Origin: Rathayibacter sp. VKM Ac-2879
GTDB lineage: Bacteria > Actinomycetota > Actinomycetes > Actinomycetales > Microbacteriaceae
Assembly: GCF_015351245.1 (NCBI RefSeq)
Contig: NZ_JADKSO010000002.1
Coordinates: 796,401 to 860,400, forward strand
DNA length: 64,000 bases
Direction of reading: 5' to 3'
Both the position numbers and the translations under genes were made by a program. Under the pieces are notes generated by a model. The model was not told the origin of the DNA, did not search any database, and saw nothing but the letters and a program-made list of their open reading frames with translations. Position 1 is the first letter of the stretch; every line of letters begins with the position of its first letter. Shown in pieces: positions 48,863-49,017 of this stretch.

Positions 48863-48936
48863 TCGGGATGACAGGATTTGAACCTGCGACCCCTTGACCC
48901 CCAGTCAAGTGCGCTACCAAGCTGCGCCACATCCCG
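48863..48936 (-). tRNA. tRNA-Pro (anticodon GGG), complete
   Basis: A 74-nt tRNA on the minus strand. The acceptor stem is CGGGATG/CATCCCG with discriminator A. The D-arm contains GCGCAGCTTGGTAGCGC. The anticodon stem-loop is CTTGA-CTGGGGG-TCAAG, giving anticodon GGG. The T-arm contains GGTTCAAATCC. CCA is not encoded. By core-site logic this complete gene lies inside the ICE, between the terminator and the right crossover. It would then replace the chromosomal tRNA-Pro split by the insertion. Confidence 0.95.
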
Positions 48937-48975
48937 TTGTTTAGTTTTCGAGCCATGTTGCCGCTTCAACTCACC

Positions 48976-48985
48976 TGACCCCCAG
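48976..48985. other. attR core
   Basis: TGACCCCCAG is the right crossover core. To its left is ICE sequence (CTCACC), to its right the chromosomal 5' half of tRNA-Pro (TCAAGTGCGC). Joining the two ICE-side flanks gives CACCTG-ACCCC-CAGGTG, a 6-bp inverted repeat around the core, as expected for attP. Confidence 0.78.
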
Positions 48986-49017
48986 TCAAGTGCGCTACCA
49001 AGCTGCGCCACAGCCCG
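48976..49017 (-). pseudogene. Isolated 5' half of tRNA-Pro (right junction of the ICE)
   Basis: On the minus strand the acceptor strand CGGGCTG, a D-arm identical to that of the neighbouring complete tRNA, and the anticodon stem up to CTGGGGGTCA are present. The sequence then changes to GGTGAGTTGAAG and no 3' half follows. CGGGCTG pairs perfectly with CAGCCCG of the displaced half at 5446-5487. The two pieces together make one standard tRNA-Pro(GGG). Confidence 0.85.

Follow-up and report, generated by a model that had tools for sequence, protein, structure and literature searches.

The genome of Rathayibacter sp. VKM Ac-2879 carries an integrative and conjugative element (ICE) of 43.5 kb that, very probably, destroyed the tRNA-Pro(GGG) gene of its host on integrating and supplied a complete copy of its own behind the host promoter. 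We examined this element in a stretch of 64,000 nucleotides (contig NZ_JADKSO010000002.1, positions 796,401 to 860,400 of the forward strand; hereafter the window). The features of the two junctions, in window positions, are:

48815 to 48861, minus strand: terminator-like hairpin after the element tRNA (predicted RNA fold of -29.6 kcal/mol for 48811-48861)
48862 to 48936, minus strand: complete element-borne tRNA-Pro(GGG), acceptor CGGGATG/CATCCCG (ARAGORN)
48937 to 48975, minus strand: element spacer, 39 nt, without a -10-like hexamer and predicted to fold back on the 5' half
48976 to 49017, minus strand: severed 5' half of tRNA-Pro(GGG), 42 nt, acceptor CGGGCTG
48976 to 48985, minus strand: right copy of the 10-bp core CTGGGGGTCA
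49018 to 49077, minus strand: host tRNA promoter region ahead of the severed gene, with a -10-like TAGGGT at 49052-49057; it resembles the upstream region of the intact gene in the relatives L127, L129, L130 and L131
5445 to 5487, minus strand: displaced 3' half of tRNA-Pro(GGG), acceptor CAGCCCG
5478 to 5487, minus strand: left copy of the 10-bp core CTGGGGGTCA

The split tRNA-Pro(GGG) gene and the replacement beside it were confirmed as a real arrangement. An initial annotation of this DNA had the gene cut at the anticodon loop, and indeed the longest sequence common to both junctions, the 10-bp core CTGGGGGTCA, lies across that loop. The same annotation had assigned the two halves, 43.5 kb apart in the window, to a single gene and had credited the element with a full replacement, giving coordinates that proved accurate to within a few bases. 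Both assignments were borne out: the halves have complementary acceptor strands (CGGGCTG/CAGCCCG), form an intact gene in ICE-free relatives and, when joined, are called by ARAGORN as a 75-nt tRNA-Pro(ggg); no tRNA is called at either junction alone, and the complete tRNA-Pro(ggg) at 48862-48936, inside the element, is the sole tRNA called in the window. The joined host gene and the element copy differ at only 2 of 75 positions (5 and 69), which together make a compensated C-G to A-T change of one acceptor pair. This arrangement is not due to chance, because the 5' half, the spacer and the complete gene recur in 38 of the 80 integrase relatives kept from the 149 loci of an integrase search.

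Near relatives found through the right-flank der region (five at 89-90% DNA identity and a sixth at 85%) reveal the empty site. Four of the six (L127, L129, L130 and L131) are ICE-free and have a single intact CGGGCTG/CAGCCCG gene behind a promoter like that of the window; in the other two the available stretch stops inside the gene (L128) or before it (L132). The initial annotation had named an ICE-free relative with the CGGGATG tRNA-Pro plus a solitary half gene as the case that would speak against it, and the four relatives carry the opposite.

The complementarity of the acceptor strands is not confined to the window. It could be scored at 29 loci, the window and 28 relatives, where a 5' half and one or more 3' halves were located (L120 was not parsed), and at 27 of them a 3' half pairs with the 5' half through seven Watson-Crick acceptor pairs. 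The element's own 3' strand would mismatch the host 5' strand at 16 of the 29, so that half-gene rescue would give a flawed stem there; at 15 of these 16 the two halves are complementary. In Haematomicrobium, for example, the halves read CGGGTTG/CAACCCG, whereas the element tRNA has CGGGCTG/CAGCCCG.

With respect to transcription, a -10-like TAnnnT motif is found in the 60 nt before the outermost 5' half at 35 of the 38 unique junctions, against a mean of 9.4 and a maximum of 21 for shuffled sequence; in the spacer it occurs at only one (shuffled mean 8.1), there being 26 different spacers among the 38. At L054, one of the three junctions lacking the upstream motif, the upstream sequence is another element's spacer and not a host promoter. 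Since no promoter is visible in the spacer, it is the host promoter that probably drives the replacement tRNA. At L037, L050 and L051 the element-type tRNA stands directly after a host-like promoter with no 5' half between them, the outcome that would be expected from recombination of two 5' copies. These three, together with L047, where the 5' half is likewise gone and the tRNA follows a host-like promoter, are possible cases of domestication by this route; the integrase match is partial in L050, L051 and L047.

We propose the following sequence of events. The tyrosine integrase would act on the host tRNA-Pro(GGG) gene by recombination at the 10-bp core within its anticodon loop and, because attP has no matching 3' half, the gene would be destroyed with neither half rebuilt. 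The complete tRNA-Pro(GGG) at the right end of the ICE would thereby come to lie downstream of the host promoter and the severed 5' half, 39 nt from the latter, and a transcript from this promoter could run through the 5' half, the spacer and the replacement tRNA to stop at the element's hairpin. As the whole tRNA is supplied by the element, its acceptor stem would not have to match that of the host, perhaps removing the barrier that half-gene rescue poses to entering new hosts. Excision would rejoin the host gene, and the element tRNA could in turn be used as the next attB, giving stacked elements. The initial annotation had gone further in suggesting that, if this gene is the only one of its kind in the genome, the dependence of the host on it would stabilise the ICE. 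As worded this is not supported: since excision by Int should bring the halves back together and so restore the host gene, dependence would oppose the loss or decay of the element's tRNA but not excision, and the host should need the element only while it is integrated.

Copy counts in the genomes of relatives suggest that the tRNA-Pro(GGG) gene cut by the ICE was apparently the only one of its host. In Microbacterium (the genus of L008) the gene is normally single-copy: of 198 genomes searched with up to 3 mismatches allowed, 186 carry a single complete copy, another 3 carry two, and 9 lack it. An exact pattern finds the replacement layout in at least 36 of these 198 genomes, 34 of which have one complete copy, and in the remaining two all the complete copies look element-borne; in the class, 4 of 394 genomes have the layout. 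Layout genomes outside the 80 loci were counted by this pattern alone. A follow-up search took in 42 of the 80 loci, and in 39 of their genomes a looser pattern, with hits judged by eye, gave no further convincing tRNA-Pro(GGG) except in Thermocrispum. In one genome, G187 (L137), two complete tRNA-Pro(GGG) genes lie at a distance of 5.3 kb, and a host-like promoter precedes each of them. The CCC and CCT codons are in use. CmoB was above the cut-off in none of 10 genomes, with weak sub-cut-off matches in 5 of them, and in 1 of 14 controls; as no CmoB exceeds the cut-off, there is no indication that CCC/CCU could be read by another proline tRNA via a CmoB-type modification.

Judged by its integrase relatives, the replacement layout is a widespread system. 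We computed a quick tree from the window and 72 loci (73 rows) with support from the Shimodaira-Hasegawa-like approximate likelihood ratio test (SH-aLRT), no bootstrap and a midpoint root; L046, L047, L050, L051, L054, L055, L074 and L078, with integrase stretches below 300 aa, were left out. All 37 layout rows (36 relatives plus the window) fall in one clade of 46 rows (SH-aLRT 99). Nine rows of this clade are without the layout: in L005 another element's left end precedes the spacer, L016 and L037 have a complete tRNA but no 5' half, and L003, L009, L011, L012, L015 and L042 have contig ends or other DNA, with no complete tRNA-Pro readable. None of the 27 rows outside the clade, 3 from Jiangellaceae and 24 mostly from Streptomycetaceae, has the layout. 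Twenty of these have a complete tRNA-Pro with no preceding 5' half, as after conventional integration, and ARAGORN calls no tRNA-Pro in the other seven; a far-end 3' half was located for three of the outgroup genomes searched (L058/L123 and L124, L063/L126, L049/L116). Because the root is a midpoint, the derived status of the replacement layout is likely, but not proven.

The host range within this system extends over several orders. Five hosts from four orders (Microlunatus, Nocardia, Cellulosimicrobium, Haematomicrobium and a Nanopelagicales metagenome-assembled genome) share integrase-end stretches of 4.8-5.9 kb that are 99.8-99.98% identical in nine of the ten pairs; the tenth pair (L019 with L022) gave a single longer alignment of 11.5 kb with 90.3% identity. 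The upstream host sequence is different in all five, and the 5' halves of L022 and L053 are unlike the rest. Such near-identical stretches across four orders bear indirectly on transfer.

Elements also seem to accumulate at this site. Two 5' halves precede the complete gene in L027, L030, L036, L054, L055 and G216. In the genome of L030 a buried 3' half leads into the terminator of a different element type. L027 and L036 yielded no buried 3' half and may be collapsed arrays. Clearer nests are L099 (L046) and L094 (L078), where element DNA and a partial integrase come after the 3' half. In the tandem junctions L135 and L164 an element's left end is joined via the core to a spacer, which is the form expected for attP.

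The window itself may have a similar past, as one further feature adjoins its left 3' half:

5286 to 5445, minus strand: remnant like an older related element's tRNA-to-integrase stretch, with terminator

These approximately 160 bp resemble the tRNA-to-integrase stretches of related elements. Alignments of about 185-192 bp that take in part of the tRNA give 71-78% identity to L154, L037, L017 and others among the matches listed; beyond the terminator, identity to L018 is 75.5% over 98 bp. No convincing integrase remnant was found in the window's left flank. Element-like DNA follows the far-end 3' half in 7 of 43 cases including the window (L108 and L120 were left out), or in 6 of 42 if L106 is set aside. 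The latter is doubtful: 5'-half sequence that runs into Ns stands before its core, and it may be a complete gene. As a control, none of 20 native stretches matched element DNA (two pairs among the 20 being the same site twice). Because the 3' half of the window is followed by element-like DNA, unlike these native genes, its integration site was probably used earlier, and the left 3' half may descend from the tRNA of an earlier element.

Could the complete tRNA simply be the host gene rebuilt by conventional tRNA-site integration, and the other pieces old relics? The Streptomyces and Jiangella elements of the outgroup, with a complete gene, no 5' half and, in three genomes, a far-end 3' half, offer a model for this. 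For the window, however, we consider it very unlikely: the acceptor pair of the complete gene is in neither host half, the host promoter precedes the severed half and not the complete gene, the core common to the junctions is only 10 bp, and the empty sites of the ICE-free relatives contradict it. Nor did we find the mark of a conventional island, a tRNA whose 5' part is host sequence and whose 3' part comes from the element. It is even harder to credit that the host had a second native gene, the complete tRNA, which by chance adjoins the insertion. The two copies in G187 lend this some plausibility, but four ICE-free relatives have one gene at the locus, and the complete gene, the spacer and the integrase move together across orders, in unrelated hosts. 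An improbable but somewhat better alternative keeps the same architecture and gives the replacement tRNA a promoter of its own, with the host promoter nearby only incidentally. A precedent is the tRNA of phage Fionnbharth (PMC10865867). Against it, 37 of 38 spacers are without TAnnnT (a crude scan that leaves room for other promoter types), and L037, L050 and L051 have the same kind of tRNA directly after a host-like promoter.

A number of observations weigh against destruction and replacement of the host gene, the explanation that we prefer. At two of the 29 loci (L006 and L038) the halves are unpaired, both sites holding more than one element or half. On its left side the window matches the ICE-free relatives over the gene and terminator only, and its left-flank proteins were not found beside the tRNA in the three relatives that were extended. 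Thermocrispum (G011) has two complete tRNA-Pro(GGG) genes, and the genome of L005 may hold a second, partly masked copy (L106). In the genome of L030, the 8 kb surrounding the buried 3' half yielded no integrase relative. Finally, the essentiality of tRNA-Pro(GGG) is something we infer from the lack of CmoB matches above the cut-off and the use of CCC and CCT.

The spacer between the 5' half and the replacement tRNA merits a comment of its own. One fixed place in it holds a 7-mer complementary to the acceptor strand CGGGCTG, the pairing being without mismatch (G-U allowed) in 27 of 42 anchored spacers; 1 of the 43 spacers had no anchor. Ten different 7-mers pair fully there, and the mean number of mismatches is 0.6 at this place against 2.5-5.9 at offsets of 1-4 nt, although every spacer was scored against CGGGCTG, including those next to a CGGGATG host half, and related spacers do not count as independent cases. 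In the window, the predicted fold of the 5' half plus spacer has -35.3 kcal/mol (z -6.4 against shuffled spacers), and in silico the spacer preserves the cloverleaf of the replacement, with a mean pair probability of 0.95 against 0.53 for shuffled spacers; none of 40 shuffles reached the native value. One could imagine, and we offer this as a doubtful model, that the spacer is an element-encoded RNA insulator: its tRNA-like or long hairpin with the host 5' half would tie up this duplicate sequence, which could otherwise compete for the replacement's 3' half. As a general rule the model did not hold up. Over 32 distinct junctions, each with 40 shuffles, the native spacer exceeded the shuffled mean in 25, mostly by a small margin, and a cloverleaf score of at least 0.80 was reached in five only (the window, L001, L004, L008 and L038). 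L002, L006, L007, L013 and L014, which have CGGGATG 5' halves and the same kinds of spacer, scored 0.26-0.36, below their shuffled means of 0.43-0.46, and the folds of the long spacers (51-54 nt) have z-scores of -1.8 to +1.5. Part of the pairing may come either from a decayed old attP half or half gene, or from the symmetry of the integrase core site by the core. The ends of the spacers just before the tRNA (48937-48975 and relatives) are strongly similar, for example AAAACTAAACAA or GAACAACTGAAAATCCATGCCA.

By its gene content the element is an ICE, as its main genes indicate:

47310 to 48629, plus strand: tyrosine integrase (PF00589, E 7.8e-25)
43888 to 46080, plus strand: VirD4/TraG-type coupling protein (PF12696, PF02534)
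42255 to 43736, plus strand: VirB4-like ATPase matching the C-terminal part of the family (NCBIfam NF045971, E 4.7e-18, 64.8 bits against a cut-off of 325; no Pfam family)
38805 to 40280, plus strand: SCO6880 family protein (NCBIfam NF042935, E 2.6e-139)
19983 to 23642, minus strand: MobF (TrwC-type) relaxase/helicase (PF08751, E 6.7e-88; NF041492)

Integrase, relaxase, coupling protein and type IV secretion system ATPase thus all lie between the attachment sites, the VirB4-like match being far below the family cut-off. We take the SCO6880 family to be part of the actinobacterial conjugation cluster. An SCO6881-like protein, an M23 peptidase, a primase and an ArdC-like protein are also encoded. 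Pfam scans of the element's larger open reading frames (Pfam only; PHROGs were not scanned) gave no capsid or tail families; the carrier does not look like a temperate phage and has conjugation genes instead. A plasmid search with the right flank gave no useful match, and viral contigs had 0 exact matches to the tRNA layout. The element also has presumptive cargo. Adjoining its left end (6292-12483, minus strand), a gene for a 2063-aa protein that matches AVAST type 3 Avs3a over almost its full length (1201 bits; curated cut-off 2800) is likely anti-phage cargo. A row of DUF4238, HEPN_LA2681/TPR, subtilase and AAA ATPase genes (12788-19426, minus strand) is perhaps another defence cluster, and 24990-28847 (plus strand) encodes an ABC ATPase, an MFS transporter and an AraC-type regulator.

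The closest known parallel is the tRNA-dependent lysogeny of phages, whose function was tested by genetics (Guerrero-Bustamante and Hatfull, mBio 2024, PMC10865867). Both systems use a tyrosine integrase and a core of ~10 bp in a host tRNA gene, rebuild the tRNA at neither junction and encode a tRNA of the disrupted isotype; the ICE would thus work like these phages, carrying over the same principle. It differs in that the carrier is an ICE, the target is tRNA-Pro(GGG), and stacked and collapsed forms are seen; the ICE system is described here from sequence. Table 2 of that paper lists no tRNA-Pro, and 'integrative and conjugative' does not occur in its text. The Fionnbharth tRNA overlaps another phage gene and has its own promoter, unlike the tRNA here, which is at the attachment site behind the host promoter. 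With conventional actinomycete ICEs, as described by Ghinet et al. 2011 (PMC3218068), the element shares a tyrosine integrase, a tRNA target and tandem arrays; it is unlike them in that the cut is in the anticodon loop and the gene is not rebuilt but supplied whole. In Sinorhizobium meliloti, prophage-related sequences are reported to have substituted a host tRNA gene by one of a foreign type, and the authors compare this swap to tRNA-dependent lysogeny (PMC11476347, PMC12429752). That case is phage-related, introduces tRNA-fMet and tRNA-Met most often, and belongs to another bacterial class. We found no report of whole-tRNA replacement by an ICE in the open literature, most subscription papers being outside the search.

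With the Rathayibacter element, whole-tRNA replacement would reach beyond phages, the only carriers for which we know it, to conjugative elements. PMC10865867 leaves open whether tRNA rebuilding preceded tRNA replacement or the reverse; here the outgroups of the conventional kind and the replacement forms can be compared directly, which bears on that order. The suggested benefit, that a whole tRNA frees the element from having to match the host acceptor stem, fits the near-identical stretches in four orders. In such a system, chromosomal tRNA genes may be exchanged serially by mobile elements.
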